Assembly (NCBI GenBank): GCA_963555705.1
Contig: OY743181.1
Location: forward strand, 29,640,513-29,704,512
From: Ligustrum vulgare
Taxonomy: Eukaryota > Streptophyta > Magnoliopsida > Lamiales > Oleaceae
Direction: 5' to 3'
Length of the DNA: 64,000 bases
The notes beneath the pieces are model-generated. The model had not been told where the DNA came from, did not search any database, and worked only from the letters and a program-made list of their open reading frames with translations. Positions within the stretch are counted from its first letter, which is position 1. Each line of letters begins with the position of its first letter. This document shows positions 2,661-49,780 of the stretch, one piece after another. The translations under genes and the position numbers were made by a program.

Positions 2661-4737
2661 GAGAGTATTTGTTTCCTTCATAGGAATATCACAAGTATAT
2701 TAATGCAATCTCAAATCATTTCATCAAACATATAGTTTTTGATGAGCTTTTATAAATAGTTTATAACTCATTTATAATATCATGGCTCATTTATGATGTA
2801 CTGAACATGCTATACCAAGCAATGTTTAGTTAGTTAACTGATTGCATTACTCAAATCTAGAATTGATTCACTTCTATCAAAATCTAGAATTCACTTCTGA
2901 TGAATAATTAAATATTCATTTTCAAATTCATTTTCCAAATTCATTTTCCGGTGGATAATATAATTTTGCATATTGAAAATCAATTGCATGCCCAAATATT
3001 CAAATATAATAATAGTACACTCCAATTTCATTTTCAACATATTATATTATGCGGTCATATGTATCATTCTTCATGTGATTTTATTTTAAGAATCACACTT
3101 CATTCTATAATGATACTATTCTGGGCAAATTGAATCTTTCAATGATTTATACATATAGGTTCTTGCACTTTATAAACTGCAATTTCTAATTTGTAGGAGT
3201 ATAATCAATCATTGAAATAGATATCAATTTCGACATATAATCTATAATCATTTTGCTTGAAATCCCAACGTACCGCGATCAACTGGTACATCAAAGAAAA
3301 CTCCCAAAGTACCGAGATGAGAATCACACTTTTTGATCTCACTCATTGGTATATCAAAGAGCTCAAACTAGTGATTTAGACTATAGTCTATCCACCATAT
3401 TTCATGCCAGTTCTTTGAAAAATTTCACGCCCAACGAGTTGTCTTTTACGACTGTGAAATATTTTTCATTTGTACATATAATTACTGGCTTTACACATTT
3501 GAGTGTTTTGGACTTCAGGTCCCATAACAATAATCCATATATTGGGATTTTATACTTGGCCAAAGTATTATAATTTCATCAACCTCATTTTCATAAGAGG
3601 GTTGTTTGTGTATGCAGTCGACTTATTTATCGATTCCATTTTATGTCAATATAAACATAACATAGAGAGATCTCTTTATATATTCTATCATCAGGTACCT
3701 GAGTCTCTTACATTTAATTATATCCCTTTTACTTACCATGAGTATTTAGCCTCAAATGGATCATTTCCATTATTCAAGAGATATTTGTTTTTGGAATCGA
3801 TTGTCATTATGCTTCAGGCATAATTACGCTTTAAGCTTGATCACGCTTCATGCGTGTTATTGTTTAATTTCCCCATAATATTCAAGAATCTTGTATTATA
3901 TCAATCGGCTAACAATGCCGCAACACATGTCATTCATAATTATGGATATAATCACAATATTATATCTAAGTAAGTTTTGTTGGAGTGTATATAGATATCG
4001 CACTTCTTAGAAATCATAAAGCTTTATAAGCAAATCTTTATTTCATCGTATTGACATGTTTGTATGTAAAATATTGCTGCATAAGAAATATTTATATTCA
4101 AGTTGTTCTCATAGCAAATAACTTGGGGCTATTAATCTGCTAAATCATTAGCAATATAATATTCTATTATCTCAACTAATTGGTAAAATCATTAATGACT
4201 TTAAGATATATTCATGCTAGCATTTATCACTTTGCTTGTAATATCATTACTTGAGCAAATAATCAGTCATTCATTTTCTTAGTGAGATAATTAATTTACT
4301 TTTCAGAACAAGCAGCAATGATAACTTGTTAACCTGAACAATCTTCTGGTTCTTTAATGAATGCCATTTTGCATTCTCAATAAATCTCATTATTGAATTG
4401 GAATATAACCAATCATTATAGAACTTCTGGTTCAGCAAGATATTTCACTTGTACATATGTATGAACTTCTGGTTCAATACAGTATTCATTTCATCAGTAC
4501 GTATTTCTGTATAATTCAAATAAGTATACCTTTATTACTTTTAGTATACCGAAAAAATTAGGTACAATATCCAAGGAAATATCTCATGATCTCAATCTTG
4601 TCGCCAAATCTTCCCTTATTTCGAAAAAGGTAATGACGCATTATCTCATTGTTCCCACCTTTTCAATAATTTATTCCATTATTTCTTGATGGAATCGATA
4701 TCACGCGGAGCGCTCCTTTACGCGTTTAAATAATGCA

Positions 4738-4746
4738 TTTAAATAG
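4738..4746 (+). promoter_or_regulatory. TTTAAATAG motif upstream of gene 1
   Basis: TTTAAATAG ends 32 bases before the gene 1 start. The same nonamer is at 39655-39663 (copy 2) and 49104-49112 (copy 3, minus). It recurs before LOG in copy 3 (48296-48304, minus), with a partial TAAATAG at 5498-5504 in copy 1. It could be a TATA box, although the spacing would leave almost no leader for gene 1. It could also be a viral subgenomic-RNA promoter core. Inference only. Confidence 0.4.
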
Positions 4747-4778
4747 ATCGTTTGGGAAGATATTAGTTCCATAAAAAA

Positions 4779-5324
4779 ATGGATGTTATATTATCAAATA
4801 TTCGCAAATATTATTCTAATCTTCCGGTAAATGTTTTGAAAAAGATTTACCGAGTTCGACTTGAAAGATTGAGGCTACTGATGGATCAAGGCATTCCAGA
4901 AGATGTTCGTTGGTTGATCGAAGCAAAAGTTCGATTAGCTGGTGAATTACCAGATTCATTTTCTAAACACATGCCTGGTTTAGGTAAGAGTACTTTTGCA
5001 AAGAAACAAAGAGCAAAAAGGTTGAACGGTTGTTACAAATGTGCTCGTTGGACATGTGATTCTCGTTGCAAATCAGTAGGATATTCTTCCCGAAATCGGG
5101 ATGATAAAATCGATTTCATTAAGGGTGGACTGAGTAAGGAGTCATTGGATGATATCCGATTGACTCTTGAGACGCACCCAAATGGGTATGTGCAACGTGA
5201 ACTCCTTTCCTTATATGCTCAATTTAACGAGGATAAAAACCGTTATAGTCTCGAAAATATAGTAGCAAAAGATCCTGTTTGCCAGGCTGTTATAAACAAT
5301 GATGTTTTGGTTATGCAGCATTAA
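4779..5324 (+). CDS. Cys-cluster basic protein resembling RNA-virus nucleic-acid-binding proteins (cassette gene 1)
   Basis: 181 residues, intact. Residues 1-60 are predicted helical and rich in Arg, Lys and Leu. Residues 68-82 form a basic stretch (K70, K75, K76, R78, K80, R81). It leads straight into a C-x2-C-x4-C-x3-C cluster (C85, C88, C93, C97), then a hydrophobic-glycine stretch near 111-117. A basic run directly before a CxxC cluster and a following 'FIxxG' element matches the layout of the cysteine-rich nucleic-acid-binding proteins of carlaviruses and relatives (Betaflexiviridae), which bind RNA and affect silencing or symptoms. Those are usually about 100-130 residues. Here a 65-residue C-terminal part is extra and the second Cys pair is closer. 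The start is the ATG conserved in all three copies, because an in-frame stop lies just upstream here. LOG follows 280 bp downstream. A plant zinc-finger origin is not excluded. Family assignment moderate, coding status high. Confidence 0.65.
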   Translation: MDVILSNIRKYYSNLPVNVLKKIYRVRLERLRLLMDQGIPEDVRWLIEAKVRLAGELPDSFSKHMPGLGKSTFAKKQRAKRLNGCYKCARWTCDSRCKSVGYSSRNRDDKIDFIKGGLSKESLDDIRLTLETHPNGYVQRELLSLYAQFNEDKNRYSLENIVAKDPVCQAVINNDVLVMQH

Positions 5325-5603
5325 TACAAGGTAAATCATTTGATATATTGTGTGTATATATTTGCACATAAAATATTTTCATATTTCATTTCTTGAGTAT
5401 TGATAAAGTGTATTGAAAAATCACCGAAAGGTAAGCTTTATCAAAAGTAGTGTAATTTAGTCAGAATTAGGTTTTCACTTTTTCAAAAGATGAGCAGTAA
5501 ATAGTGAAGTTTTTCAAGTTTAAAAAGCCAATGATTTTCACAGTTTCATGCATCCCAAAATATCATTTTTCTCATAAGTTTTTCCTTCCTTATACTCTCA
5601 AAG
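5325..5603 (+). other. Intergenic region of cassette copy 1 / LOG leader
   Basis: Non-coding and conserved in all three cassettes. It contains the hairpin at 5400-5444, a TAAATAG motif at 5498-5504 and a leader of about 60 bases before the LOG ATG (containing 'gcatcccaaaat') that is also preserved in copy 3. Confidence 0.6.
5400..5444 (+). other. Conserved hairpin with GAAA tetraloop between the two cassette genes
   Basis: TTGATAAAG (5400-5408) pairs perfectly with CTTTATCAA (5436-5444). Inside it, ACC-GAAA-GGT forms a tetraloop stem. Copy 2 has the same sequence at 40320-40364. Copy 3 (48384-48433, minus) keeps a weaker outer stem and lengthens the inner one to six pairs around the same GAAA loop. 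Retention as structure suggests an RNA or cis-regulatory role, unproven. Confidence 0.6.
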
Positions 5604-6191
5604 ATGGAAGGATCAAAACTTCGACAGATCAAAACTATCTGTGTATTTTGTGGATCAAAAGTAGGAAAAGGTTTTGGATATCTAGAAGCAGCAGTGGATT
5701 TAGGAAAGAAGTTGGGAGAGAAAGGTATCAATCTAGTATATGGAGGAGGTAGCAGTGGATTGATGGGTTGTGTTTCCCAATCCGCTCAAGCAGAAAAATC
5801 AAGAGTGATAGGTGTTATACCCGTTCCTTTAGTTGATATCGCAGGAAAAATACGAGGGCATGAAGTACAGACTTTATCTATTCATGAACGCATAACTTTC
5901 ATGTTATATGGTTCTGATGCCTTCATAGCCCTTCCTGGAGGTTTTGGTACTTTAGAAGAAATCTTTAATATTACCTCATGGGCTCATTTAGATCTCCATA
6001 CCAAGCCTATTGGGCTTTTAAATGTTAACAATTTCTTTGATGGTTTGCTAACATTTCTTGATTATGATGTGGAACAGGGATTCATCTCTCCATTTTCTAG
6101 GAGAATCCTTATTTCTGCTCCTACTATCGAGGAACTGCTGGATAAGTTGCAATCATATGTCCCCATACAAGATCCAGCAGGAGTTAGATAG
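5604..6191 (+). CDS. LOG-like: LOG-type cytokinin riboside 5'-monophosphate phosphoribohydrolase, intronless (cassette gene 2, copy 1)
   Basis: 195 residues. LOG enzymes release active cytokinin bases from their nucleotide forms in one step. Visible signatures are VFCGS (14-18), VYGGGSSGLMG (45-55), IHER (93-96) and the signature PGGFGTLEE (111-119), here intact. In typical plant LOGs the IHER region ends in Arg-Lys; here the Arg is kept but the next residue is Ile. Plant LOG genes usually contain several introns; this one has none, so it passed through RNA or came from a virus. A one-base deletion near 6186, relative to the longer copies, ends the protein about 22 residues early and removes a basic C-terminal tail seen in copy 3. 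The conserved catalytic body is complete, so activity is possible but unproven. The gene is antisense to the retrotransposon around it. Confidence 0.85.
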   Translation: MEGSKLRQIKTICVFCGSKVGKGFGYLEAAVDLGKKLGEKGINLVYGGGSSGLMGCVSQSAQAEKSRVIGVIPVPLVDIAGKIRGHEVQTLSIHERITFMLYGSDAFIALPGGFGTLEEIFNITSWAHLDLHTKPIGLLNVNNFFDGLLTFLDYDVEQGFISPFSRRILISAPTIEELLDKLQSYVPIQDPAGVR

Positions 6192-6272
6192 ATTGGTCGC
6201 AAGGAAGGGGAATCAAGCGAAAATGGAGTCCGGTTAATGTAAACTTAACTTTGTGAATCTCAAAATATTGTG

Positions 6273-6375
6273 GGTGGTAAAGTATGGGGTATTCTTATTC
6301 TTGAGACACACCTTTTATTTATTTCCTCAAAAGATCAGAGGTGGTAGGATACGGCTACTCCCGAAACACATCTCT
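6273..6375 (+). repeat. Two copies of a structured 3' repeat after LOG
   Basis: Units at 6273-6312 and 6337-6375 share the frame GGTGGTA...(A/G)TA(C/T)GG...CACAYC. Outer GGTG/CACC and AGAG/CTCT arms can pair around an inner hairpin (GTAG/CTAC in the second unit). Copies 2 and 3 have three units each. The unit is not a known terminator to me. Confidence 0.55.
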
Positions 6376-6439
6376 TATTTTGAGGATCATAAATGTTTCC
6401 CTTTTTTGTATTTTGCATGTATGACTCGTTTATGATTCT

Positions 6440-7880
6440 TCAGGAGCAATAATAATAATATCATTTCAGCATGTTTAGATGATAATTTTTACTTCTTCTG
6501 GAGTAAATATGTACTTCTTTTGGAATACATAAGTGCTTGTGCAAGAACTTTTCCAGATACTTATCATCTAATATTCATCTCATAATATTGATGAGTTTAT
6601 TTTCACATTATCCATATCCGTGCTATCATGTGATATTATCTTATCATACATCAACATTCTCTTGTTGAATAATTCATTTTTCATCTATCTTTTCAATACA
6701 GATAATGGTAACTTCTGGTACCGTTTGATAAAATATTTTTATTTACATTTATCAACTTTTGGTAATGATAACTTCTGGTATCAGTTGATAAAATATTTTC
6801 TAACTTGAGTATTGATAACTTCTGGTATCATTAAATGAAATAAATAACAATAATATTGTATATATATATTAACAATAATAATACTGGGGTTTTACCATCA
6901 CGTATATATGTTGACAACAACCTCTAATATGTTAGAATTAACCAACAACTGAGGTGTTTCTGAAATAATATAAAATTTGAATATATGTAAAGTATTCCAT
7001 ATATTCAATTGATAAACCGACCATATAGGCGGTATCAACATAAAGAAATAATTACCTTTCATGAGTGAGCGAGTCATATCTTCCAGTCAAGGTATTCATA
7101 ATAATGATCGAGTCATATAGTCAAATCCAGTCAAGGTATTCATAATAGTCCAATCCGTTACGATAATGAGTCATATCCAGTTAAGGTATAAATCCAGTCC
7201 ATAATAACTCAATCCATCACGGTATGCCAATGACTATATTAATTATACCTTGTTTAAAATCTTTAATTTATCTTGTTGATCACATATTAATCGTTAATTT
7301 TTGATTAATTTACTTTTATGTATTACCAAGGGTAAAATGGTCCATATTTTAATATGTTGCTCATATGGATAAATCGAAACCGTCAATAGGTTTGAAATTT
7401 AATTTAGAACAAACTTACTTTTGGTCCGAAGTTCAAAATCTCGTCGGAAGTGCTTCAAAAACGGTTTTTAAGAAAATCGCCACGTTCGATCGCCGGAAAA
7501 TTTCAGAAGCGTCGTTACGCGCCGGTGAGACGTCTGCGCGTGGGCTTCACGTGACGCGTCGGTGCCGGTGCCGTTGACACGAGCCGGTTCGGAAGAATCT
7601 TTCGGTCGCCGTGGTCATGGATCCGATCTCTGATTATCATTTGGATATACGGTTTGGCGTGAATTTGGTTTGGAAGTTTCGGATTACACAATTTCTTCAA
7701 TTTTTCTATGGACTTGAAATTGATCTACAAATCTATGATGTATAAATGATTTTCTAACAACAAAAACACTGGATTTGGAATATGAAATGTTGATTAGTAA
7801 TAATTTGGTTTCTAATACAGAGGTTCATCATTTATATGCAACTGTAGAGCATACTCCCGTCATATTACTCAATAGGCTTG
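6440..7880 (-). other. Element copy 1 interior, 5' part in element orientation
   Basis: No supportable gene. It holds short repeated phrases: 'aacttctggta' near 6710-6830, and 'ccagtcaaggtattcataat' with variants three to four times at 7080-7200. A GC-richer leader follows (7480-7640) and is shared with 41880-42000 in copy 2. This would be the untranslated leader plus a lost gag region. Confidence 0.5.
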
Positions 7881-7898
7881 AGGCTCGTGCTGATAACG
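7880..7898 (-). other. Primer-binding site of element copy 1
   Basis: On the minus strand CGTTATCAGCACGAGCC lies immediately inside the LTR. Its complement, CTCGTGCTGATAACG, resembles the anticodon arm of an isoleucine tRNA rather than a tRNA 3' end. That would imply priming from a cleaved (half) tRNA, as known for Drosophila copia and Ty5 with initiator Met tRNA. The position is seen; the tRNA identity is from memory. Confidence 0.5.
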
Positions 7899-8134
7899 TG
7901 TTGTGAAACTATCAAATTCTAACAACTAAATAAGAGAGAGAGAAAGATTGAGAGCTAGAGAGAAGGAGGAGAATTCTCTTGTTTCAAGAATTGGTGCAAG
8001 AAATACAACAATGAATGCCTCTATTTATAGGAAATTCTATAGGGGCAAAAATAGTTATTAATACAATAAAATATATTATAAATTAGGTAAGGAATTTATA
8101 ACAATATAAATTAGGTAATGAGAATTTTATAACA
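7899..8134 (-). repeat. LTR, right copy (5' LTR in element orientation)
   Basis: 236 bp, near-identical to 1568-1801. It is followed by the target duplication GTGTA at 8135-8139. Confidence 0.9.
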
Positions 8135-36810: not shown

Positions 36811-37580
36811 CTGCCTCGTTAAAACCTTGCTAAGAAAACCCGATGGGATAAAACTTGAGCGAAGGAAAAAGATACAGCTGCTCCTCCTGATGTTGGCCAT
36901 CATTAATAATTGAGTCTAATATCCAAAATGACATCAATGATAAGTAGTACAAATCATGTACTGAAATTTGAAGTTCTGAAGTACTGAAGTGCTTCAGTGC
37001 TTTAGTTCTACCTTGTTAAAACCTTGTTAGTACAACCCAATGGACAAATTCTGAACGAAGGAAAAAAAGTACAGCCTCTGCCTCGTTAAAACCTTGTCAG
37101 GAAAACCTAGTAGGACAAAACCTGGACGAAGGAAAAAGAGTACAGCATGATTCTCCCCCTGAAGTGTGCAATCAAGTATTCTTGAACCTTTTGAATAATG
37201 ATATCATCTTTCGTCTGAAATATATATATATGAAAATCTTCTTGTGTGTAGCCGATATCATAACATTCTTCATAAGATGTCTATGATTTTCTTCATTTAT
37301 TGATATCATAACATTCTTCATAAGATGTCTATGATTTTCTTCATTTGTTGATATCATTCCAGCACAATTTAAAGAGAGAGCTTGTTGTTGAATTATTACT
37401 TGCAGATAGCTGTGACAATGTCTCAAAAACCTTGTTAGGAAAACCCTGTGGGACAAAACCTTAGCGAAGGGAAAAAGAATACATTATTCTCATTAATACG
37501 CCATAATTGCTGCCTCATTAAAAACCTTACTAGGAAAACCCTGTCGGACAAAACCTCAGCTAAGGGAAAAAGAGTGCAGC
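36811..37580 (-). repeat. Five-module array of element copy 2
   Basis: Modules of the kind listed at 1831-2660 occur near 36811, 37010, 37077, 37421 and 37508. An extra 57-bp tandem duplication ('cataagatgtctatgatttt') lies at 37256-37355 and is absent from copy 1. Confidence 0.7.
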
Positions 37581-39694
37581 GCGTATTTGTTCCCTTCATA
37601 GGAATATCACAACTATATTAATGCAATCTCAAATTATTTCATCAAACATATAGTTTGTGATAAGATTTTATAAATAGTTTATAACTCATTTATGAAGTCA
37701 TAGCTCATTTATGATGTATTGAACATGCTATACCAAACAATGTTTAGTTAGTTGACTGATTGCATTACTCAAATCTAGAATTGATTCACTTCTGGTGAAA
37801 CTATCAAAATCTAGAATTCACTTCTGATGAATAATTAAATATTCATTTTTAAATTCACTTCTGCTGAATATTCATTTTCGGTGGATAATACAATTTTGCA
37901 TATTGAAAATCAATTGCATGCCCAAATATTCAAATATAATAATAGTACACTCTAATTTCATTTTCAACATATTATATTATGGGGTCATATGTATCATTCT
38001 TCATATGATTTTATTTTAAGAATCACATTTCATTCTATAATGATACTATTCTGGGCAAATTGAATCTTTCAATGATTTATACATGTATGTTTTGCACTTT
38101 ATAAACTGCAATTTCTAATTTTCAGGAGTATAATCAATCATTGAAATTGATATCAATTTCGACATATAATCTATAATCATTTCCCTTGAAATCCCAACGT
38201 ACCGCGATCAACTGGTACATCAAAGAAAACTCCCAAAGTACCGAGATGAGAATCACACTTTTTGATCTCACTCATTGGTATATCAAAGAGTCCAAACTAG
38301 TGATCTAGATTATAGTCACATCCACCATATGTCATGCCAGTTCTTTGAAAAATTTCGCGCGACACGTCTTCTTTTACGACTGTGTAATATTTTTCATTTG
38401 TACAAATAACTACTGGCATTACACATTTAAGTGTTTTGGACTTCAGGTCCCATAACAATAATTCCTACATTGGGATTTTATACTTGGCCAAAGTATTATA
38501 ATTTCATCAACCTCATTTTAATAAGAGAGTTGTTTATGTACGCAATCGACTTATTTATCGATTCCATTTCATCTCAATATAACATAGAGAGATCTCTGTA
38601 TATGTTCTATTATCAGGTACCTGAGTCTCTTACATTTAATTATATCCCTTTTACTCACCATGAGTATTTAGCCTCAAATGGATCATTTCAATTATTCAAG
38701 AGATATTTGTTTTTGGAATCGATTGTCATTATGCTTCAGACATAATTACGCTTTAAGCTTGATCACGATTCATGCGTATTATTGTTTAATTTCCCCATAA
38801 TATTCAATAATCTTGTATTATATTAGTCGGCTAAAATGTCGCAACACATGTCATACGTAATTATGGATATAATCACAATCATATATCAAGTGCGTATTGT
38901 TGGAGTGTATATAGATATCCTACTTCTTAGAAATTATAAAGTTTCACAAGCAAATCTTTATTTCATCGTATTGACATGTTTGTATGTAGAATAGTGCTGC
39001 ATAAGAAATATTTATATTCAAGTTGTTCTCATAACAAATAACTTGAGGCTTTTAATCTGCTAAATCATTAGAAATATAATATTCTATTATCTCAACTAAT
39101 TCGTAAAATCGTTAATGACTTTAAGATATATTTATGCTAGCATTTATCACTTTGCTCGTAATATCATTACTTGAGCAAATAATCAGTCATTCATTTTCTT
39201 AGTGAGATAATTAATTTTCCTTTGAGAACAAGCAGCAATGATAACTTCTTAACCTGAACAATCTTCTGGTTCTTTAATGAATGACATTTTGCATTCTCAA
39301 TAAATCTCATTATTGAATTCGAATCTAACCAATCATTATAGAATTTCAGGTTCATCAAGATATTTCACTTGTACATATGTATGAACTTCTGGTTCAATAC
39401 AGTATTCATTTCATCAGTACGTATTTCTGTATAGTACAAATCAGTATACCTTTATTAGTGTACCGAAAAAATCAGGTACAATATCTAAGAAAATATCTCA
39501 TGTTCTCAATATTGTCACCAAATCTTCCCTTATATCGAAAAAGATAATGACGCATTATCTCATTGTTCCCACATTTTCAATAATTTATTCCATTATTTCT
39601 TGATGGAATCACTGACACATTGAGCCACCGCTCTTTTACGCGTTAAATAATGCATTTAAATAGATCGTTTGGGAAGAGATTAGATCCAAAAAAA

Positions 39695-40240
39695 ATGGAT
39701 GTTATATTATCAAATATCTACAAATACTACTCAAATCTTTCGATAAATGTTTTGAAAAAGATTTACCAAGTTCGACTCGAAAGATTGAGGCTGCTGATGG
39801 ATCAAGGTATCCCAGAAGATGTTCGTTGGTTGATCGAAGCAAAAGTTCGATTAGCTGGTGAATTACCAGATTCATTTTCTAAGCACAAGTCTGGCTTAAG
39901 TAAGAGTACTTTTGCAAAGAAGCGAAGAGCAAAAAGATTAAATAGTTGCTCCAAATGTGCTTGATGTACATGTAATACCCGTTGTAAGTCAGTAGGATAT
40001 TCATTCATAAATCGAGATGATAAGATAGACTTCATTAAGGGTGGACTGAGTAAGGAGTCATTGGATGATAACCGATTGACTCTTGAGACGCACCCTAGTG
40101 GGTATGTGCAGCGTGAGCTACTATCTTTATGGGCTAAATTCATCAGCGATAAAGACCGTTATAGTCTCAAAAATATAATAGCAAAAGATCATATTTGCTA
40201 GGCTGTTATAAATAATGATGTTTTGGGTACTCAACATTGA
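39695..40240 (+). pseudogene. Cassette gene 1, copy 2 (nonsense-inactivated)
   Basis: Same gene as 4779-5324, with high similarity and no frameshift. A TGA at 39962 falls just after the first two cysteines of the cluster, replacing a Trp codon. A second stop (TAG at about 40199) replaces a Gln codon near the C-terminus. The first cysteine of the CxxC pair is preceded by changed residues (NSCSKC instead of NGCYKC). An upstream in-frame ATG at 39650 exists, but the start conserved in all copies is 39695, 32 bases after TTTAAATAG (39655-39663). Confidence 0.85.
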
Positions 40241-40319
40241 TGCAAGGTAAATCAGTATATTGTGTGTATATATTTGCACATATATTTATAAAATATTTTC
40301 ATGTTTCATTTCTCGAGCA

Positions 40320-40364
40320 TTGATAAAGTGTATTGAAAAATCACCGAAAGGTAAGCTTTATCAA
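40320..40364 (+). other. Conserved intergenic GAAA hairpin, copy 2
   Basis: TTGATAAAG and CTTTATCAA arms around ACCGAAAGGT, identical in both arms and loop to 5400-5444. Confidence 0.6.
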
Positions 40365-40523
40365 AAGTAGTATAATTTAGTCAGAAGTAGGTTTTCACTT
40401 TTTCAAAAGAACGAGCAGTAAATAGTGAAGTTTTTCAAGTTTAAAAAGCCAATGATTTTCACAGTTTCATGCATCCCAAAATATCATTTTCTCATAATTT
40501 TCTCCTTCCTTATACTCTCAAAG

Positions 40524-41177
40524 ATGGAAGGACCAAAACTTCGACAGATCAAAACTATCTGTGTATTTTGTGGATCAAAAGTAGGGAAAGATTTTGGGTA
40601 TCTAGAAGCAGCAGTGGATTTAGGAAAGAAGTTGGGAGAGAAATGTATCAATCTAGTATATGGAGGGGGCAGCAGTGGATTGATGGGTTGTGTTTCACAA
40701 TCCCCTCAAGTAGAGAAAGCAAGAGTGATAGGTGTTATACCCGTTCCTTTAGTTGATATCGCAGGCAAAACACGATGGCATGAAGTACAGACGTTATCTA
40801 TCCATGAACGCATAACTTGCTTGTTATATGGTTCTGATGCCTTCATAGCCCTGCTTGGAGGTTTTGGTACTTTAGAGGAAATTTTTAATATTACCTCATG
40901 GGCTCAATTAGATCTCCATACCAAGCCTATTGGGCTTTTAAATGTTAACAATTTCTTTGATGGTTTGCTAACATTTCTTGATTATGCTGTGGAACAGGGA
41001 TTCATCTCTCCAGTTTCTAGGAGAATCCTTATTTTTGCTCCTACTATCGAGGAACTGCTGGATAAGTTGTAATCATATATTCCAATACAAGATTCAGCAG
41101 GATTAAAGATAGATTGGTCGCAAGGAAGGGGAATCAAACGAAAATGGAGTCCGGTTAATGTAAATTTATCCTTGTGA
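40524..41177 (+). pseudogene. LOG-like: LOG-type phosphoribohydrolase, copy 2 (damaged)
   Basis: Begins MEGPKLRQIK and keeps the fold motifs, including VYGGGSSGLMG and IHER. The signature reads LLGGFGTLEE in place of LPGGFGTLEE, so the conserved Pro is lost. A TAA at 41070 (from a CAA codon) truncates the product before the C-terminal tail, which is still legible in frame to 41177. Intronless like the other copies. Enzyme activity is unlikely. Confidence 0.85.
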
Positions 41178-41192
41178 ATCTCAAAATATTGT

Positions 41193-41381
41193 GGGTGGTA
41201 GAGTATGGAGTATTCTTACTCTTGCGACACACCTTTAATATTGATGAGTATTTGAACTTAATCTTATGAACTTCAAAAGGATTTGAAGTGGTGGAGTACA
41301 GAGTATTCTTACTCTTGAGATACACAAAAAAGATTAGGGGTGGTAGAGTATGGAGTATTATTACACCCGATACACACCTCT
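41193..41381 (+). repeat. Three structured 3' repeats after LOG, copy 2
   Basis: Units at about 41193-41233, 41287-41325 and 41336-41381. Each has 'GGTGG(T/G)(A/G)GAGTA', 'GGAGTATT' or a variant, and a closing 'ACAC'. The arms GAGTA/TACTC can form an inner hairpin in the first two units. Confidence 0.55.
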
Positions 41382-42255
41382 ACTTTTGAGGGTCATAAAT
41401 GTTTCTCCCTTTTGTATTTTGCATGTATGACTCGTTTATGCTTCTTCAGGAGCAATAATAATAAATCCAGTTAAGGTATAAATCCAGTCCATAATAACTC
41501 AATCCATCACGGTATGACAATGATTAAATTACTTATACCTTGTTTAAAAATTTTAATTTATCTTGTTGATCACATATTAATCGTTAATTTACGATTAATA
41601 TACTTTTATGTATTAACAAGGGAAAAATTGTCCATATTTTAATGTATTGCTCATAATAGGTTTGAAATTTAATTTAGAACAAACTTACTTTTGGTCCGAA
41701 GTTCAAAATCTCGTCGGAATTGCTTCAAAAATAGTTTTTAAGAAAATCACCACGTTCGACCGCCAGAAAATTTCAAAACTGCACAAAACAGAAAAGTAAG
41801 ATCATATAAAAATCCAAAACATCAAGACAAACAAACTTCCTGTTGACATCATCGCGGGAAAATCTTCCACGCTCCCTCACGCGCCGCGTGGACGTCTGCG
41901 CGTGGATGTCACGCGCCACCATGCCGGTGACTCTGCCATCGACACGCGCCGTTGTCGGAGGACCGTCCCGTCGCCATGGTCATGGATCTGGTGTCCGATC
42001 ATCGTTTGGATATACAGTTTGACGTGAATTTGCTTTGAAAGTTTCGGGTTACACAATTTCTCCAATTTTTTTTTTATAGACTTGGAATTGATTTTCTAAT
42101 CTATGATTTTCTAACACCAAAAACACTAGATTTGGAAAATGAAATGTTGATTAATAATAATCTGGTTTCTGATACAGATGTTCATCATTTAGATGCAACT
42201 GTAGAGCATACTCCCGTCATATTACTCAATAAGTTAGAGACTCGTGCTGATAATG

Positions 42256-42471
42256 TGTTGTAAAACTATCAAAATCTAACAAGAAATAGAGAGAAAGAGA
42301 TGGAGAGAATGAGAGAGAACTTCTCATTAGGTGTAATTTTATAAATGAAATTACTCCTATTTATAGGAGTGAATAATGGCACAATCGTAATATGTACATT
42401 TTACAGGGGCATAATAGTAATTGTCATTCATACATAATTTCTTACCTAATTTTTAATAATATTTTATAACA
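42256..42471 (-). repeat. LTR, right copy, element copy 2
   Basis: 216 bp. It aligns with 36539-36771 apart from small deletions and about a dozen substitutions. Confidence 0.85.
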
Positions 42472-42476
42472 CTTAG

Positions 42477-43263: not shown

Positions 43264-43268
43264 GGGGG

Positions 43269-45407
43269 TGTAGCGACCAAGAATTTTTACGCGATTAATA
43301 ATTATTTTAATAGAAAATCGTGTCGCTACTATTTCACCCATTTTTATTAAGTAACGCCGTGACGTATTCGTATAGCCAAGTCAAGAAATAATCGAGATCG
43401 TTCGATTTTAAATTAAATTCCGAATTTCTAAAAATATCTCCATTCTCTTGATTTAAAGTATATTAAGTCCAAGTACTTAATTCAATGTTATCCCAATATT
43501 TATTTATACAAAAATTATTTTTATTATTGAAATTAAGAAAATATATGCAAGCATGAGAGGTTCCATTATATATAATAATTATGAGAATCTTAATTTAATA
43601 AATATGGAAAAGTATATGAATGAATTATATACTCCATTATATATAATCATGAAGAGCATAATATTTGTATAAATATGGAAAAGTATATGAATGAATTATA
43701 TACTCCATTATATATAATCATGAAGAGCATAATATTTGTATAAATATGGAAAAGTATATGAATGATTGATAAGACTCCATTATATGTAATCATGAAGAGC
43801 ATAATATTTGTATAAATATGGAAAAGTATATGAATGAATTATATACTCCATTATATATAATCATGAAGAGCATATTATTTGTATAAATATGGAAAAGTAT
43901 ATGAATGGTGCTTTACTTTAAGAAAATGATGTGTTAAAATTAATAGAATTGAATGATTATGTTTACAATATGCCAACTTTATACATCTATTTAAACCCAT
44001 CTCTTTTACACACAACTCTACACATATACACTTATTTCCAATCTCTTGACAAAATCCACAAGTAAGAGAAATTCAAGGTGGTCAAGAAAGTTTTGGTCCA
44101 TTTACTACTACACTTCATTTTAATCTTTTAAAAAGTAAGTATATTTTATGTTTTTATGAAAGGTAAGTATGTTTTTATGAAAGGTAAATACACCTTATGT
44201 TTTTATGAAAAGTAAGTATGTTTTTATGACAAGTAAGTATATTTTATGTTTTTATGAAAAGTAAGTATGTTTTTATGAAAGGTAAATACACCTTATGTTT
44301 TTATGAAAAGTAAGTATGTTTTTATGACAAGTAAGTATATCTTATGTTTTTATGAAAAGTAAGTATGTTTTTATGAAAGGTAAATACACCTTATGTTTTT
44401 ATGAAAAGTAAGTATGTTTTTATGACAAGTAAGTATATCTTATGTTTTTATGAAAAGTAAGTATGTTTTTATGAAAGGTAAATACACCTTATGTTTTTAT
44501 GAAAAGTAAGTATGTTTTTATGACAAGTAAGTATATCTTATGTTTTTATGAAAAGTAAGTATGTTTTTATGAAAGGTAAATACACCTTATGTTTTTATGA
44601 AAAGTAAGTATGTTTTTATGACAAGTAAGTATATCTTATGTTTTTATGAAAAGTAAGTATGTTTTTAAGAAAGGTAAATACACCTTATGTTTTTATGAAA
44701 AGTAAGTATGTTTTTATGAAAGGTAAATACACCTTATGTTTTTATGAAAAGTAAGTATGTTTTTATGACAAGTAAGTATATCTTATGTTTTTATGAAAAG
44801 TAAGTATGTTTTTATGAAAGGTAAATATCTTATGTTTTTATGAAAAGTAAGTATGTTTTTATGAAAATTAGATATACCTTATGTTTTTATGAAAATGTTT
44901 GGATCATTTCTATGAAATCAATCTCACAAGATTGTTATGGGTTCCATATGATATGTTTATGATTATGCTAAGGGGACCGGAGTTTAGTAGCGCTACACAT
45001 AAGAATTCTTGCCATTTAAGTTCGGTAAAATTCTTGTGTCTCCCTATATTTATGAGTATTTCGATCCTATCCTATGTTATGATGAAAATGATCCATATGC
45101 TTTCAAAAGAAAATTTATGCTTGGTATACTTATTGGGATTTTATAAATCTCACTCTACGATATTTACCATTTTCAGATAATTGAAGGTTCGAGGCGGTCA
45201 ACATGGAAGTGGCAAAAGTGGTTAAGATTGATGAGATAATTATGTTGAACTTTATGTAAGAAAATTATGTTCTATTTATATTCACAAATAAAATTATGGG
45301 ATTCTAATTATTCTTTTGAATAATTTTACATTACTATTTAAGTCTCGATAATATGATATGAGTCACTTTTAGTGGCACTCGAATGGTCAAGATTTCGGGT
45401 CGTCACA
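43269..45407 (+). repeat. Young Gypsy 5' LTR
   Basis: 2139 bp, starts TGTAGCGACCAAG and ends GGGTCGTCACA. Two internal tandem arrays: a ~70-bp unit at 43600-43910 and a 98-bp unit at 44140-44880. Confidence 0.93.
44140..44880 (+). repeat. 98-bp tandem array in LTR
   Basis: The landmark 'aaatacacc' recurs at 44186, 44284, 44382, 44480 and 44578, a strict 98-bp period. Each period contains four sub-repeats of 'atgtttttatga'. It is duplicated in the 3' LTR (50860-51600). Confidence 0.93.
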
Positions 45408-45408
45408 G

Positions 45409-45420
45409 TTGGTATCAGAG
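45409..45420 (+). other. Primer-binding site of young Gypsy element
   Basis: TTGGTATCAGAG, one base inside the LTR, fits the 3' end of initiator tRNA-Met. Confidence 0.88.
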
Positions 45421-45429
45421 ATAAGAGTT

Positions 45430-47230
45430 TTAAAAACGATTCTGTAGATTTTTGAAATTTTATTTCTTTAAAAAAAAAAAAAAAAATCACTATTCACGTG
45501 AACAGTAAAACGACGTGCTATTCATGATGAACAGTGAACGAAATCACTATTCATTAAAAAAAAAAAAAAGTTGAATTTTCACATGTCAAGTATGATTATG
45601 ATTTTGAAAAGCATGATGAAATTTGATGTGCGAATTTCAAGGACAAAATTCATTTTAAGCAAGGGAGTTTGTAATGTCCTGAAAATTTTATGGAATATAA
45701 TTAGTTAGTGATATGATGTTTATATTGATGTCTTTGATAAATTTCTAGAAGTTCGGGGACTAAAGGAAAATAAGATTTGACGATAAATTTTTATTTGGGT
45801 TAATTAGGCCCAATCTTATGTAAAGATGCGAAATGATTAATAATTATTTTTTTTTTGAAATATTTTAACTCATCACTCTACTATGTCACTCTCCACGTAT
45901 TGACTCCTCGAACCAGGTATGTTATATGCTTTGCAAGTCATTTACGATTTTATTAAGACATGTTAAGTATGAAATATTCATATGTTATGAATCTTTAAGT
46001 GAAATATACATGTTGAGTAGTGATATAAATTGATAGAAGACTCAATTTTTTTTATTCTTTTCAATGTAGAATCATGAGACAGAGAGGATATTTATATGAA
46101 TTTTGGTGCATATTAAGCTTAGTAAGATTGACTCAATTAGAAATTAAGTTGGGTTGTAACTTTTGCCCAAAATATATGGAATAATATATTAAACAAACAA
46201 AATTAATAATGAATTCGTACAATAATTTATCCCTTTATCACTACCTTTGTGTAAAAACAAGGGAAAAACTGTGGATGGTTATTAGTACTTCCTCTTCAAG
46301 TTTCAATTTTCGGTTCAATAATTTATCCCTTTATCACTACCTTTGCTTAAAAGCAAGGAAAAACTGTGGATGATTATTGGTACCACTCTTCAAGTTTCAA
46401 TTCTGAAAAAAAAAAATTCGGAAAGAAAAGAAAGAAAGAGAACGGGTGTTGAGCCTAATGGGAATAATATGACTTAAGAATGATTTTCAAAATAATTGTT
46501 GTCCTTGAGTTTAGAAATGATGAACCTTAAATGGACTTTGCATAATTGATTTTAGACATGGCACTAAGTATGAGAAGTCAACAGAAATGATTAGAAATAT
46601 GTTCAGATTATCTATCATTTAGATTTAATGAGAAATAGCGAGCCAATTTTATGAAGTTTTATGAGATGTTAAGATTATAAGTGGTTTTAATGAGACTTTT
46701 ATGAGAAGCATTATGAAGTTAGAGATTTAAAGATTTGGTTATTGGGAATTAAGTAATGGATATTATGTTGAGTAAGTGAATTATGCCTCTATATTGAAGA
46801 GAAATTTATTATGAACTTTGGCCTTGTGATTAAATTTTGGGAATATGATTTATGACTTATAAATATAAGTATGAGTAATCTTTTGAGCCAATTAAGGTAT
46901 GGAAGGAAGTGATATTGTGATATTGAAAAATATGATTTGAAATTGTTATGTTGAGGAATTATGAATTGAATTATGGGATATTTTTTGATGATATTGAAGT
47001 GTTGGAATCGTTTTCAATATTTTTAGATCGTTGTGATCAAATGTGGAGTTATTTATTATTGTGAGTTATGAAGTATGCTTATGGTTTGGGATAAGTCCAA
47101 ATTACAAGGGAGACTTTGTCCAGAATTTTATCATTTGGAATTAAGAGCATGATATGATAAGCATCCACTAAAGGAATTAAGGTTAGACATGCAAGTTCAT
47201 TTACATCACAAACGAGATTTAGTAGATGAT
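45430..47230 (+). other. Eroded 5' interior of the young Gypsy element
   Basis: No open frame of meaningful length. It includes two A-runs with 'cactattcacgtgaacagt' (45485-45560) and a short tandem repeat of 'ttatccctttatcactacct' (46225 and 46325). 46200-47230 is homologous to 32520-33420. Similarity ends at the cassette border near 47230. Confidence 0.6.
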
Positions 47231-47342
47231 AGCAGAGATTTTATTATTTTCTCATAAGGAGAACATACAAAGAGTCACACTGGAAAAGAAATACATGAAA
47301 CACGCAAAAGCAAAAGAAAGCAACATGGGAAATTCCTCAAAT

Positions 47343-47558
47343 TGAGAGATGTGTTTCCGAAGTAGCCGTATCCTACCACCTCTGACCTTTTGAGGAAATA
47401 AAGAAACCTTCAAAGAGGTGTGTTTCGAGAGTAAGAATACTCCGTAATCTACCACCTGGAACCTTTGAGGTACACACAAGATTTAAACATTAAGGAAATC
47501 CTAGGAAATTAGAGGGGTGTCTCGAGAGTAAGAATACTCCGTACTCTACCCCCACCTA
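47343..47558 (-). repeat. Three structured 3' repeats after LOG, copy 3
   Basis: Units at about 47344-47382, 47414-47457 and 47514-47558 (minus strand). The two units nearest LOG contain GGAGTATTCTTACTC, a perfect GAGTA/TACTC hairpin with a TTCT loop, inside outer arms ending in ACACC/GGTG. The distal unit replaces the inner stem with GTAG/CTAC. Confidence 0.6.
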
Positions 47559-47567
47559 TTCTAAGAT

Positions 47568-48221
47568 TCATAAAGTTAAGTTTACATTAACCGGACTCCA
47601 TTTTCGCTTGATTCCCCTTCCTTGCGACCAATCTATCTTAACCCCTGCTGGATCTTGTATTGAGATATATGACTGCAGCTTATCCAGTAGTTCATCAATA
47701 GTAGGAGCAGAAATAAGGAGCCTTCTGGAAAATGGAGAGATGAATCCCTGTTCCACAGCATAATCAAGAAAGGTTAACAAACCATCAAAGAAATTGTTAA
47801 CATTCAGAAGCCCAATAGGCTTAGTATGGAGATCTAGTTGAGCCCACGAGGTAATGTTAAAGATTTCTTCTAAGGTACAAAAACCTCCGGGCAGGGCTAT
47901 AAAGGCATCAGAACCATATAGCATACAAGTTATGCGTTCATGGATGGATAATGTTTGAACTTCATGCCCTCGTGTTTTGCCTGCAACATCTACCAAAGGG
48001 ACAGGTATGACACCGATTACTTTTGATTTCTCTGCAAGAGCAGATTGGGAAACACAACCCATTAGACCACTGCTACCACCCCCATACACAAGAGTGATAC
48101 CTTTTTCCCCCAGTTTCTTTCCAAGATCTACGGCCGCTTCTAGATAACTGAAGCCTTTCCCCACTTTTGATCCACAAAATACACAAATAGTTTTGATCTG
48201 TCGAAGTTTTGGTGCTTCCAT
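47568..48221 (-). CDS. LOG-like: LOG-type phosphoribohydrolase, full-length, with altered signature (cassette gene 2, copy 3)
   Basis: 217 residues, the longest of the three copies and without stops. VFCGS, VYGGGSSGLMG and IHER are present. The active-site signature reads PGGFCTLEE: the second-block Gly is Cys at residue 115, a position rarely changed in LOG enzymes, so activity may be reduced or lost. It ends in a basic tail ('GRGIKRKWSP') not found in the plant LOGs I know. Intronless. The gene is antisense to a very young retrotransposon. The start ATG lies in a leader that matches copies 1 and 2, with a TTTAAATAG motif 75 bases upstream. The reading frame is open, but function is uncertain because of the Gly-to-Cys change. 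Confidence 0.85.
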   Translation of the reverse strand: MEAPKLRQIKTICVFCGSKVGKGFSYLEAAVDLGKKLGEKGITLVYGGGSSGLMGCVSQSALAEKSKVIGVIPVPLVDVAGKTRGHEVQTLSIHERITCMLYGSDAFIALPGGFCTLEEIFNITSWAQLDLHTKPIGLLNVNNFFDGLLTFLDYAVEQGFISPFSRRLLISAPTIDELLDKLQSYISIQDPAGVKIDWSQGRGIKRKWSPVNVNLTL

Positions 48222-48295
48222 CTTTGATAGTATAGAAGAGAAAACTTACGAAGAAGATGTGATTTTGGGATGCCTGAACTATGAAATATGTTTGA

Positions 48296-48304
48296 CTATT
48301 TAAA
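48296..48304 (-). promoter_or_regulatory. TTTAAATAG motif upstream of LOG, copy 3
   Basis: The same nonamer as before gene 1, here 75 bases before the LOG start. See the entry at 4738. Confidence 0.4.
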
Positions 48305-48383
48305 GCCGGAAAAATTTATTGTTTTTGATTGATTATGAAAAAGTAAAGATTTACTTTTGACAAAATCGGCCAACTTTTGACTG

Positions 48384-48433
48384 TTTTACCAAAGATATCA
48401 CCTTTCGGTGATTTATTTCCAGCTTTATCAAAA
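48384..48433 (-). other. Conserved intergenic GAAA hairpin, copy 3
   Basis: Inner stem ATCACC/GGTGAT with a GAAA loop (six pairs, against three in copy 1). The outer arms TTTTGATAAAG and CTTTGGTAAAA pair with two G-T wobbles and one mismatch. Confidence 0.6.
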
Positions 48434-48517
48434 CTCGAGAAAGGAAAATATATTTTATTTCCAAAACGCGTGAAAGAAAACAGCAAAATATCTTAAATGT
48501 GTATCAAGAGATTTACC

Positions 48518-49069
48518 TTATATCATTGTTGAACTGCCAGAAGCCTTATTTTGTAAAACAGACTGGCAAACAGGATCTTTTGCTATTATATTTTGGAGAC
48601 TATAACGATTTTTGTCCTCGTTAAACTGAGCGTATAAGGAGAGAAGTTCACGTTGCACATAACCACTTGGGTGCGTCTCAAGAGTCAGTCGAATATCATC
48701 CAAAGACTCCTTACTCAGTCCACCCTTTATGAATTTGATTTTACCATCCCGATTAGTAGAAGAATATCCTACTGTTTTGCAACGAGTATCACAGTTCCAA
48801 CGAGCACATTTGTAGCAACCATTCAGCCTTTTTGCTCTTCGTTTCTTTGCGAAGGTGCTTTTGCCTAAACCAGGCATGTGCTTTGGAAATGTCATAGGTA
48901 ATTCACCAGATAGTCGAACCTTTGCTTCGATCAACCAGCGAACATCTTCTGAAACACCATGAGCCATCAGCAACCTCAATCTTTCGAGTCTTATTCGATA
49001 AATTTTCCTCAGATCATTCATTGGAAGACTGGAATAATACTTGCGAATGTTTGTAAGAATGATATCCAT
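48518..49069 (-). CDS. Cys-cluster basic protein (cassette gene 1, copy 3), intact
   Basis: 183 residues from the conserved ATG at 49069. An in-frame ATG at 49117 would add 16 residues, but the copy 1 counterpart is closed by a stop. Very similar to 4779-5324. It has the same helical N-terminus, basic stretch, C-x2-C-x4-C-x3-C cluster (C85, C88, C93, C97) and long C-terminal part, with mostly conservative changes and a different last dozen residues. Two independent open copies in different element families suggest either recent spread or constraint. The family reading (virus-type nucleic-acid-binding protein) is as for copy 1. It lies upstream of LOG on the same strand with about 300 bp between them. 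Confidence 0.65.
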   Translation of the reverse strand: MDIILTNIRKYYSSLPMNDLRKIYRIRLERLRLLMAHGVSEDVRWLIEAKVRLSGELPMTFPKHMPGLGKSTFAKKRRAKRLNGCYKCARWNCDTRCKTVGYSSTNRDGKIKFIKGGLSKESLDDIRLTLETHPSGYVQRELLSLYAQFNEDKNRYSLQNIIAKDPVCQSVLQNKASGSSTMI

Positions 49070-49103
49070 GTTTTTGATGGATCTAACCTCTTCCCAGCAT
49101 GAA

Positions 49104-49112
49104 CTATTTAAA
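49104..49112 (-). promoter_or_regulatory. TTTAAATAG motif upstream of gene 1, copy 3
   Basis: Minus-strand TTTAAATAG ends 34 bases before the conserved ATG at 49069, as in copies 1 and 2. Confidence 0.4.
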
Positions 49113-49399
49113 AGCATTAAGGATCGGAGGGAATCCGCGTGATATTGATTCCAGCAAGAAAGCGCGGAATAGAATAATGGAAAAGAGGGAACAAGAGTTT
49201 ATGCGCCGTTTACTTTCTTGATAAAAGGAAGATTTGATGATGACGGGATTTGAGATATGGAATATTTTCTTTGATTTTTGGGTACTGATATTTTGATATA
49301 ATAATCAAGGTATAGAAATAATACGGGGATACGTGAAAGTGAAATAAGGACTGTATTGAATCAGGATTAATAAGTTTGTACAAGTGAAAGGAATACCTT

Positions 49400-49780
49400 A
49401 CGGGAAATGTTATGATATTTGAGTTAAGAATTTTAATTATTTGGGAGATATTTGTTTATTGAATTTTGCAGAAATTTTGGGTTACAAATATTGGAAAGAT
49501 AAACTGATGATTATGTTGATATGTGAATAACATGTTTGGATATATTACATAGAGAATATTCAGGTAATCGTTTTAATTATTTTGGGATATTTGGTGATAA
49601 GAAGAAATGACAAATTATTATGGTATGATATGTTAGTAAAGATTTATTGAAATTTTAGAGATATTAATACGAATATTTGAGGTTACATGATACTATGATA
49701 AGTGACAGGTTACATGAGTACTACAAGATATGATGAAATATCACATACGATTGGAAATTTTCATTTTGAGTTAGAATTTA
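49400..49780 (+). other. Eroded interior of the young Gypsy element, beyond the cassette
   Basis: AT-rich, no reading frame, nothing recognised. Confidence 0.5.

Follow-up and report, generated by a model that had tools for sequence, protein, structure and literature searches.

The window, a 64-kb stretch of Ligustrum vulgare DNA, contains three copies of a block of about 2 kb in which a gene for a nucleic-acid-binding-like protein (NABP, gene 1) is followed by a LOG gene (gene 2), with copy 3 inverted, as the original prediction had stated from the sequence. In window self-BLAST, 49389-47506 of copy 3 matched 4443-6320 of copy 1 with 79% identity and 49389-47418 matched 39363-41325 of copy 2 with 77% identity, both as inverted matches. 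Copies 1 and 2 are members of the same element family (1791-6318 against 36761-41239, 90% over 4.6 kb in the same self-BLAST, with additional similar pieces reaching 7963), whereas the sequence of copy 3 outside the block is unlike that of copies 1 and 2. Since both flanks and LTRs differ between copy 3 and copies 1 and 2, one local segmental duplication including the flanks, named beforehand as the outcome that would speak against a mobile two-gene system, was ruled out as the origin of the copies. Both genes are full length in copy 3, NABP is open and LOG shortened (195 codons) in copy 1, and both genes are broken in copy 2.

Table 1. Features of the NABP-LOG block copies, their carriers and a block-free relative in the 64-kb window.
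Feature	Position	Strand	Details
Copy 1 carrier, family A	1568..8134	-	LTRs 1568-1801 and 7899-8134, 97.5% identical; TSD GTGTA
Copy 1 carrier, PPT-like AAAGGGGGAG	adjoins 1802	-	read on minus strand
Copy 1 NABP-like gene	4779..5324	+	181 aa, open, antisense to carrier
Copy 1 LOG gene	5604..6191	+	195 aa, C-terminus shortened, PGGFGTLEE present
Copy 1 carrier, PBS-like TTATCAGCACGAG	adjoins 7898	-	read on minus strand
Gypsy-like fragment without block at matching place	32259..33613	-	
Copy 2 carrier, family A	36535..42473	-	LTRs 87% identical; exact TSD not found
Copy 2 block	39363..41464	+	NABP broken (match 39695-40222), LOG broken (40524-41072, LGGFGTLEE)
Copy 3 carrier, family C	43269..52129	+	2,140-bp LTRs 43269-45408 and 49990-52129, 99.86% identical; 5-bp TSD
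Copy 3 carrier, PBS-like GTTGGTATCAGAG	at 45409	+	
Copy 3 shared block	47233..49389	-	limits set by alignment to families A and B
Three hairpin units AGGTGG..TAG..ACACACC(T)	47340..47560	-	downstream of LOG
Copy 3 LOG gene	47568..48221	-	217 aa, full length, PGGFCTLEE
Putative TATA-like TTTAAATAG	48296..48304	-	copy 3, upstream of LOG
GAAA-loop hairpin ATCACCGAAAGGTGAT	48397..48412	-	intergenic; core CCGAAAGGT in 10/10 aligned loci
Copy 3 NABP-like gene	48518..49069	-	183 aa, antisense to carrier
Putative TATA-like TTTTAAATAG	49104..49113	-	copy 3, upstream of NABP
Copy 3 carrier, PPT-like AAGGGGGTAAGTT	directly before 49990	+	

Pfam scans of both genes took in window copies 1 and 3. Gene 1 scored 33.2 and 30.1 bits, respectively, against Viral_NABP (cut-off 23), and 21.3 and 25.3 bits against Carla_C4 (cut-off 20.9); 45 of the 46 aligned NABP relatives matched each of the two families at E 0.01, and the NABP of locus L033 passed for Viral_NABP (34.2) with a Carla_C4 score of 19.8, below the cut-off. 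The earlier "nucleic-acid-binding-like" assignment can be sharpened: by these profile matches, gene 1 is specifically a homologue of the carlavirus/betaflexivirus-type NABP. The protein is about 180 aa long, its conservation among plant relatives extends well past the zinc finger, and it is coded in LTR elements, not in a positive-strand RNA virus genome; two scans of IMG/VR viral contigs returned no relatives. The AlphaFold (AF2) model was poor (pLDDT 58.5), and with it nothing significant was obtained in a PDB fold search or by Foldseek against BFVD, where the best matches had E-values of 0.23 (unnamed) and 0.43 (Fig latent virus 1 silencing suppressor, 27% identity, non-significant). The best E-value in a PDB sequence search with the NABP alignment was 1.1.

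Gene 2 scored 112.2 and 110.7 bits against PF03641 (cut-off 27), and matched the plant LOG At2g37210 (PDB 2a33) with an E-value of 2e-56. PGGFGTLEE, an instance of PGGxGTxxE, which we take to be the catalytic motif, was kept in 22 of the 23 near-full-length LOGs of this genome, the exception being window copy 3, and the HER motif in all 23; the shorter LOG of window copy 2, outside this set, has LGG in place of PGG. Retention of the two motifs points to retained LOG chemistry in this genome.

The upstream, intergenic and 3′ sequences of the block were also conserved among the 10 aligned loci, and the block takes its promoter-like boxes and 3′ hairpins along with it. Upstream of NABP the TATA-like TTTAAATAG was present in 8/10 loci and TTTAAAAAG in the other two, and the same counts were obtained upstream of LOG. 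The 3′ hairpins contained one compensatory pair (U-A/G-C), and Rfam gave zero matches at E 1 for 47000-49600 of the window.

Carriers were tested at 27 loci for a TG..CA LTR pair, PBS, PPT and a 5-bp target duplication, the 20 short loci sampled by sequence tag (below) lying outside this set. An LTR pair with PBS- and/or PPT-like sequence was found in 24 of them, the other three being unreadable, and an exact 5-bp duplication at most 2 nt from the repeat ends in 11/27; for the copy 1 carrier, TTATCAGCACGAG is presumed to be the PBS and AAAGGGGGAG the PPT, as judged by the pattern usual in plant elements. The predicted LTR elements were thereby borne out, as was the occurrence of the cassette in different families: the block is present in no fewer than three LTR families whose LTRs are unrelated, i.e. 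the short-LTR family A, family B and the long-LTR, Gypsy-like family C. Overlooked in the original prediction was the orientation of the gene pair, which was antisense to the carrier in 24/24 loci with readable orientation (unreadable in 3/27; L011, L015 and L032). The carriers had further been said to be devoid of their own gag-pol, which held for one A and one C element (zero Pfam matches across three sense frames), but not for one examined element of family B, which has a Copia-type gag in an internal region of only 4.2 kb, where the pol scan was not full-length. No pol was found in these three elements, and the carriers are therefore probably mobilised in trans.

The Gypsy-like fragment at 32.26-33.6 kb, described earlier as a relative without the block, matched both flanks of the block in the copy 3 carrier, one at 85% over 828 bp and the other at 74% over a mere 58 bp (E 1e-4). 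The distance between the two matched sides is about 0.22 kb in the fragment versus 2.17 kb in the carrier; a gain of the block in the Gypsy lineage, as opposed to a loss, is presumed.

Many paired copies with conserved spacing had been expected elsewhere in the genome, and were found. A 16-base NABP tag had 6,021 exact copies in the 1.38-Gb genome (reversed control 0), and both genes were present in the same order and on the same strand in 24/24 further loci chosen by LOG and in 20/20 loci sampled by the NABP tag alone, NABP preceding LOG with a gap of about 250-300 nt where NABP was full length. In the tag-chosen sample (n=20), LOG was intact in 11 and NABP in 15 loci; decay of this kind would be seen in old copies, and in passengers as well. 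All 150 scored genomic matches to PF03641, from 7,995 candidates of which the others were unscored, passed the cut-off. For annotation this is a warning that intronless "LOG" sequences may number in the thousands in a plant genome and be transposon genes.

The genes are not usually apart in this genome, and the claim that they are always paired held for all the L. vulgare loci so sampled. It fails as a general rule, as a contig from another plant has NABP in sense orientation after a Gypsy-type integrase ORF, and the 1 kb left of that contig yielded no LOG. Among the 120 listed proteins, 20 were Orobanche gene models joining NABP and LOG, and one Orobanche model (P0257) joined NABP to a Copia-type gag. 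The search of prokaryote contigs gave a single match, which also encodes a Gypsy-type integrase and was for that reason taken as plant DNA within a bacterial MAG. NABP P0014 and LOG P0189 come from the same source and from contigs of equal size (4,511), both fall beside Populus sequences in the comparisons, and they are a candidate rosid pairing; the contigs of P0015 and P0140 are likewise equal in size (8,723), while smaller coincident contig sizes in the lists may be due to chance.

Mean between-family omega was 0.091 (A-B), 0.084 (A-C) and 0.154 (B-C) for LOG, and 0.171, 0.170 and 0.169, respectively, for NABP, at dS of 0.34-0.73. Within families A and B omega was 0.16-0.23, and the single within-C pair gave 0.63 and 1.12 on very few changes. 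These values show that selection has kept both proteins. The proposed comparison of gene trees gave a divided answer. Each family formed one clade in both codon trees, and LOG and NABP distances were correlated (Mantel r 0.96, 0/5,000; 20 loci), but the order A,(B,C) is no test of agreement between the trees when there are only three groups and the roots are set at midpoints. With outside sequences included, B joined C in the NABP tree (98/99) and A joined C in the LOG tree (90/99; 98/98 in another run), neither alternative order being rejected (AU 0.061 and 0.194); as the two trees prefer different family orders, they do not prove joint descent. Taken as a whole, the original interpretation is partly supported: the pairing of the two genes at conserved spacing, in LTR families whose LTRs are unrelated, is borne out.

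Our main reading, with a probability of roughly 0.6, is that the block constitutes an antisense two-gene accessory module serving LTR retrotransposons, the functions of which would be silencing suppression or transcription control together with cytokinin activation. The argument rests on adjacency, selection and orientation. The module would probably be transcribed from its own putative promoters, antisense to a carrier mobilised in trans, and would be one unit common to families with unrelated LTRs (Copia-type gag, Gypsy-like, short-LTR). NABP would probably act like its nearest characterised relatives, the betaflexivirus cysteine-rich proteins, which are RNA silencing suppressors and nuclear transcription factors, and LOG would probably release active cytokinin from its ribotide, or alternatively act in the nucleus via its basic, LxLxL-like tail. 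The net effect would be weaker silencing and more division in element-active cells, and hence more copies reaching the germ line. Tentatively, the pair might even be a "grow and do not silence" module that is portable and has passed between Copia and Gypsy elements, in which an antisense betaflexivirus-type silencing suppressor/transcription factor blunts RNA silencing and a cytokinin-activating enzyme makes the host cell divide, much as viral accessory genes do; if so, the elements would be manipulating host hormone signalling to selfish ends.

The LxLxL motif binds co-repressors, and LOG, with its basic stretch and EAR-like LxLxL tail, could instead be kept mainly as a nuclear regulator, repressing or activating host or element genes together with the zinc-finger NABP, its hormone chemistry being secondary or lost. 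LxLxL was found within the last 14 residues in 100/120 listed LOG homologues and a basic pair just upstream of it in 108/120, the HER arginine was lost in 23 of 25 parsed Orobanche LOGs, and CVB p12, the relative from a carlavirus, activates transcription in the nucleus and suppresses silencing (PMC7588395). The tail in this genome is, however, mostly the weakened VNLTL/VNLSL, and the conserved HER and PGGFGTLEE speak for retained chemistry. This reading is considered unlikely.

Less probable still is that a host chromosomal NABP-LOG pair was captured several times by different LTR families, so that the constraint is that of the host gene. The strongest constraint was indeed seen between families, the trees with outside sequences differ in family order, and several homologues are annotated as plant genes, mostly as "hypothetical protein"; against this, an LTR pair flanks the block in 24 of the 27 loci, NABP adjoins an integrase ORF in another plant and a gag in P0257, and omega is below 1 within A and B. 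Passenger DNA, i.e. transduced genes amplified without benefit by efficient carriers, is disfavoured and quite improbable: many copies are decayed and plant LTR elements are known to transduce genes, but such genes are usually in sense (PMC7264820), whereas this pair is antisense in every readable case, has the same order and flanking motifs in three families, and shows between-family omega of 0.08-0.17. That the block itself is a mobile unit inserting into LTR elements is very doubtful, for although three families or more have one and the same block, a Gypsy-like relative is without it and a fourth LTR pair (TSD GTTTA) surrounds a B fragment at locus L018, no Pfam transposase is among its two genes, no terminal repeat or target duplication was noticed at its edges in the alignments that delimited them, and at L018 a B LTR accompanies the block, as would sooner be expected from recombination or nested insertion.

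The accessory-module reading has partial precedents. The LOG resembles plant LOG enzymes in motif and sequence, but is open in one exon, multicopy and ends in VNLTL (LDLSL-type in many relatives); gene 1 of copies 1 and 3 passes both Pfam cut-offs like the cysteine-rich NABPs of carlaviruses and betaflexiviruses (CVB p12), but differs in its DNA element, LOG partner and long conserved region. Citrus and Populus have Gypsy LTR elements for which a YgdH/LOG domain has been published (PMC9289625, section 12, citing Steinbauerova et al. 2011). One half of the NABP-LOG system, which the original prediction did not recognise as a known one, had thus been described before, and so had antisense accessory ORFs. 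The screen described there used reverse transcriptase as marker, which leaves elements without it outside, all 15 filtered extra domains were in Gypsy elements, and neither "nucleic acid binding" nor "carlavirus" occurs in its main text. In the literature searched, neither the NABP identity nor its pairing with LOG nor the occurrence of the pair in several LTR families was reported, although Steinbauerova et al. 2011 or Lukhovitskaya et al. 2013 may hold a report. Orchid Gypsy elements, which gained an m6A demethylase domain (PMC9289625), are likewise LTR retrotransposons with an acquired cellular enzyme domain, but are reported for Gypsy only, with another enzyme and no virus-like partner described there.

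The nearest relatives in arrangement are the antisense accessory ORFs (aORF-3R) of plant LTR retrotransposons, i.e. Grande gene23, which has its own promoter, RIRE2, Retand TRP28 and PvRetro13 (PMC7264820, PMC11963269). Like these, the NABP-LOG pair consists of extra genes antisense to the carrier and situated towards its 3′ LTR. Unlike them, it comprises two genes, one virus-like and one of a hormone-activating enzyme family, and is common to families with unrelated LTRs; with no pol found, the carriers examined also lack the aORF-3R-type position between pol and 3′ LTR of a gag-pol element. One coding module is thus documented across such families, including elements without a sense-strand gag/pol domain. 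Antisense accessory genes have been known for years with their function still missing, partly because most of their proteins resembled nothing informative, clear database similarities being described only for SMC and TRP28 domains and none for viruses (PMC7264820). As one member of the NABP-LOG pair is similar to enzymes whose reaction is established, and the other to a viral protein whose activities have been characterised, the role of such genes becomes directly testable.

Self-comparison of the window (G000:C14:29640513-29704512 in a genome of 1.385 Gb and 51 contigs) recovered the three cassette copies of the original prediction, the third being inverted as claimed. In Pfam searches of copies 1 and 3, gene 1 was identified as a Viral_NABP/Carla_C4 protein (NABP) and gene 2 as a LOG-family protein (PF03641), with At2g37210 (2a33, E 2e-56) as the nearest solved structure to the latter. 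By self-comparison, copies 1 and 2 belong to the same short-LTR element family, matching at 90% across about 4.6 kb, and the 2,140 bp LTRs of copy 3 are 99.86% identical. A RALF peptide gene of ordinary type (100.6 bits) lies ca. 1.9 kb away from the copy 3 element, which is very young; tandem repeat arrays of 49 bp and 71 bp are found within the family C LTR, and a further LTR-like copy is present in inverted orientation.

Cassette copies, carrier elements and other features. Positions refer to the window unless a contig or locus is named; W1-W3 are window copies 1-3, and L009-L032 are 24 further genomic loci fetched via LOG.
Feature	Position	Strand	Remarks
Cassette, copy 1 (W1)	4443-6320	plus	
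PBS-like TTATCAGCACGAG, copy 1	7898 downwards	minus	adjoins LTR
PPT-like AAAGGGGGAG, copy 1	near 1802	minus	adjoins LTR
Cassette, copy 2 (W2)	39363-41325		
Cassette, copy 3 (W3)	49389-47506	minus	inverted
GTTGGTATCAGAG, copy 3	45409	plus	directly after LTR
AAGGGGGTAAGTT, copy 3	just before 49990	plus	adjoins LTR
Family A			detected LTRs 175-261 bp; W1, W2, L010, L012, L016, L019, L022, L026, L027, L029
Family B			detected LTR repeats about 1.2-2.4 kb, TGTTGACC..GGTCAACA; L009, L013, L014, L020, L021, L023-L025, L028, L030, L031
Family C			LTRs TGTGACGACC../TGTAGCGACC..; W3, L017
Segment resembling family C LTR	19306-19698		
Tandem repeat arrays in family C LTR	43538-45013, 50259-51734		49 bp and 71 bp
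LTR-like copy	10491-12609		inverted
RALF peptide gene	53996-54604		
860-bp LTR element	L018:201-7310		cassette forward
Integrase ORF and NABP	L033:104-2344		in sense
Run of LOG matches	G000:C2:24821734-24846566		~6-7 kb spacing

The LOG family search of the genome returned 7,995 candidates, and all of the best 150, which were scored, exceeded the cut-off. From 8,742 NABP candidates, the best 150 were scored, and these had no internal stops and 99-100% identity to copy 3; as the best matches, they are uninformative on the state of a typical copy. Exact matches to a NABP 16-mer numbered 6,021 in the genome (2,940 + 3,081), against 0 for its reversed control. The whole-genome search for paired copies, proposed in the original prediction, found both genes at every locus of two samples. 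NABP similarity was situated upstream of LOG on the same strand at 24/24 loci fetched around LOG matches, with NABP broken at some of these (e.g. L013, L029). Conversely, 20 loci spread over ~100 listed 16-mer places on contig C1, and picked without regard to LOG, all contained LOG similarity downstream of NABP on the same strand, which was only partial at two loci (L040, L044). In this sample, 15 of the 20 loci had an open NABP frame of 181 codons or more, and 11 had an open LOG frame of 217 codons or more that included the CVFCGS and GGFxTLEE motifs. Runs of regularly spaced LOG matches on contigs C2, C9, C11, C17 and C22 are possibly tandem chains of LTR-sharing elements, as suggested by L031.

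Grouping of the 27 loci (W1-W3 and L009-L032) by LTR and internal sequence resulted in the carrier families A, B and C, in agreement with the claim that the cassette resides in different LTR retrotransposon families; L032 was placed in family A from internal sequence only, and L011, L015 and L018 in family B from shared sequence. At 11 of the 27 loci, the repeats were flanked by a perfect 5-bp duplication lying no more than 2 nt from their ends. The window carriers had been described as devoid of their own gag-pol; the family B element L009 holds in its 4.2 kb internal region a sense Copia-type gag in two frame-open pieces (Retrotran_gag_2 48.3 bits, zf-CCHC 25.2). All sense frames of one family A (L026) and one family C (L017) element produced no Pfam match at E 0.01. 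The family C LTR resembles a window segment (77%, self-comparison) overlapped by an ORF with a sub-threshold Tf2-1-type SH3 domain match (29.3 bits, cut-off 30), so that family C is probably Gypsy-like. At L018, an 860-bp LTR pair (97.8% identical, TSD GTTTA) encloses a B fragment of one B LTR and the cassette; this single case possibly represents a fourth carrier family and a recent cassette transfer.

NABP-LOG is on the strand opposite to the PBS- and PPT-like sequences in copy 1, and opposite to the carrier sequences beside the LTRs in copy 3. With the cassette set forward, reverse-complement PPT and/or PBS were found at the expected inner LTR sides in 24 of the 27 loci, and thus NABP-LOG is antisense in every readable case; a usable LTR pair was not obtained at three of the 27 loci (L011, L015, L032).

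Alignment of ten loci from the three families revealed the same box 5' of both NABP and LOG (TTTAAATAG in 8/10, TTTAAAAAG in 2/10), a hairpin core CCGAAAGGT between the two genes in 10/10 loci, and repeated hairpin units 3' of LOG. In 15 distinct hairpin units, standard pairs comprised 95.7% of pair cells, against 93.0% in shuffles (0/500 as high) and 36-69% in slid versions, and one pair switched from U-A to G-C in 4 of the units. Double-change pairs and further pair types, two of the five hairpin measures on these 15 units, showed no excess over shuffles. The boxes and hairpins are consistent with a putative transcript in the cassette's own direction.

For Nei-Gojobori estimates, 23 LOG and 23 NABP frames from the 27 loci were included, shorter frames being dropped. 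Mean between-family omega was 0.091 (A-B), 0.084 (A-C) and 0.154 (B-C) for LOG at dS 0.34-0.50, and 0.171, 0.170 and 0.169, respectively, for NABP at dS 0.47-0.73. Within families A and B omega was 0.16-0.23, and the values of the sole family C pair (0.63 and 1.12) rest on very few changes. Agreement of the LOG and gene 1 trees, suggested beforehand as a check, was partial. In the 20 loci with both frames, distances of the two genes correlated (Mantel r 0.959, 0/5,000; within A 31/5,000, within B 4/5,000), and each family formed a single clade in both codon trees, which are unrooted and therefore do not indicate family order. When outside proteins were added, B and C joined in the NABP tree (100/99 and 98/99 in two runs) and A and C in the LOG tree (98/98 and 90/99), yet the order of the other gene survived the AU test in both cases (NABP with A+C 0.061; LOG with B+C 0.194). 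Exchange between the two genes is possible. Their co-inheritance is supported by their adjacency, by the flanking motifs they have in common and by the correlation of their distances.

NABP homologues were found in Orobanche, Populus, Xanthoceras, Acer, Rhamnella and other sources, and the Ligustrum genome and Orobanche sequences were set apart from 25 other chosen sequences in the NABP tree (99/97). Of 177 proteins found in a homologue search, 120 were listed, and 20 of those listed are gene models from Orobanche gracilis, O. hederae and O. minor in which NABP is joined to LOG; in one Orobanche protein (P0257) NABP was joined to Copia-type gag with a zinc knuckle. L033 is a piece of plant DNA within a Nomurabacteria MAG. 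Its Gypsy-type integrase ORF (rve 60 bits) precedes an open NABP frame in sense orientation, at the position otherwise taken by env-like ORFs, indicating that NABP has also been encoded behind the integrase of a Gypsy element; the last 1 kb after NABP contained no LOG match. Judged from this contig, NABP is possibly an accessory gene of more Gypsy elements.

Among 120 listed LOG homologues (P0121-P0240), 100 had an LxLxL end, and most combined this EAR-like tail with a basic patch. An EAR-like motif is unexpected in a cytosolic enzyme. Ahead of the PGG motif, HER was replaced by HDN or HDS in 23 of 25 parsed Orobanche LOGs (P0241-P0268, P0277), the arginine being retained in P0259 and P0260; by this replacement, enzyme activity may have been lost or changed in these parasites.

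The analysis shows NABP and LOG to be neighbouring genes under selection, antisense to the LTR elements that carry them and bordered by conserved motifs. They would be transcribed from their own promoters, with the carriers mobilised in trans. By homology to the carlavirus cysteine-rich protein CVB p12 (PMC7588395), NABP could suppress silencing, act as a transcription factor, or both. The former activity would be of use to elements producing antisense RNA, since this possibly leads to double-stranded RNA. LOG could be a cytokinin activator, cytokinin presumably favouring dividing cells, or a nuclear partner. A 2013 paper among the references of PMC7588395 reportedly concerns cell size and proliferation.

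Antisense extra ORFs of plant LTR elements are already known, with function unassigned and no virus similarity according to the accessible part of PMC7264820, and TRP28 is described in Retand in the excerpt of PMC11963269. NABP in such elements and its pairing with LOG are apparently unreported, being unmentioned in the available portions of the literature searched on LTR-element extra ORFs, in which Steinbauerova et al. 2011 is represented by citation only. The LOG (YgdH/LOG) domain has its precedent in Gypsy elements of Citrus and Populus (excerpt of PMC9289625, citing that study), where it is likewise carried inside an LTR retrotransposon.
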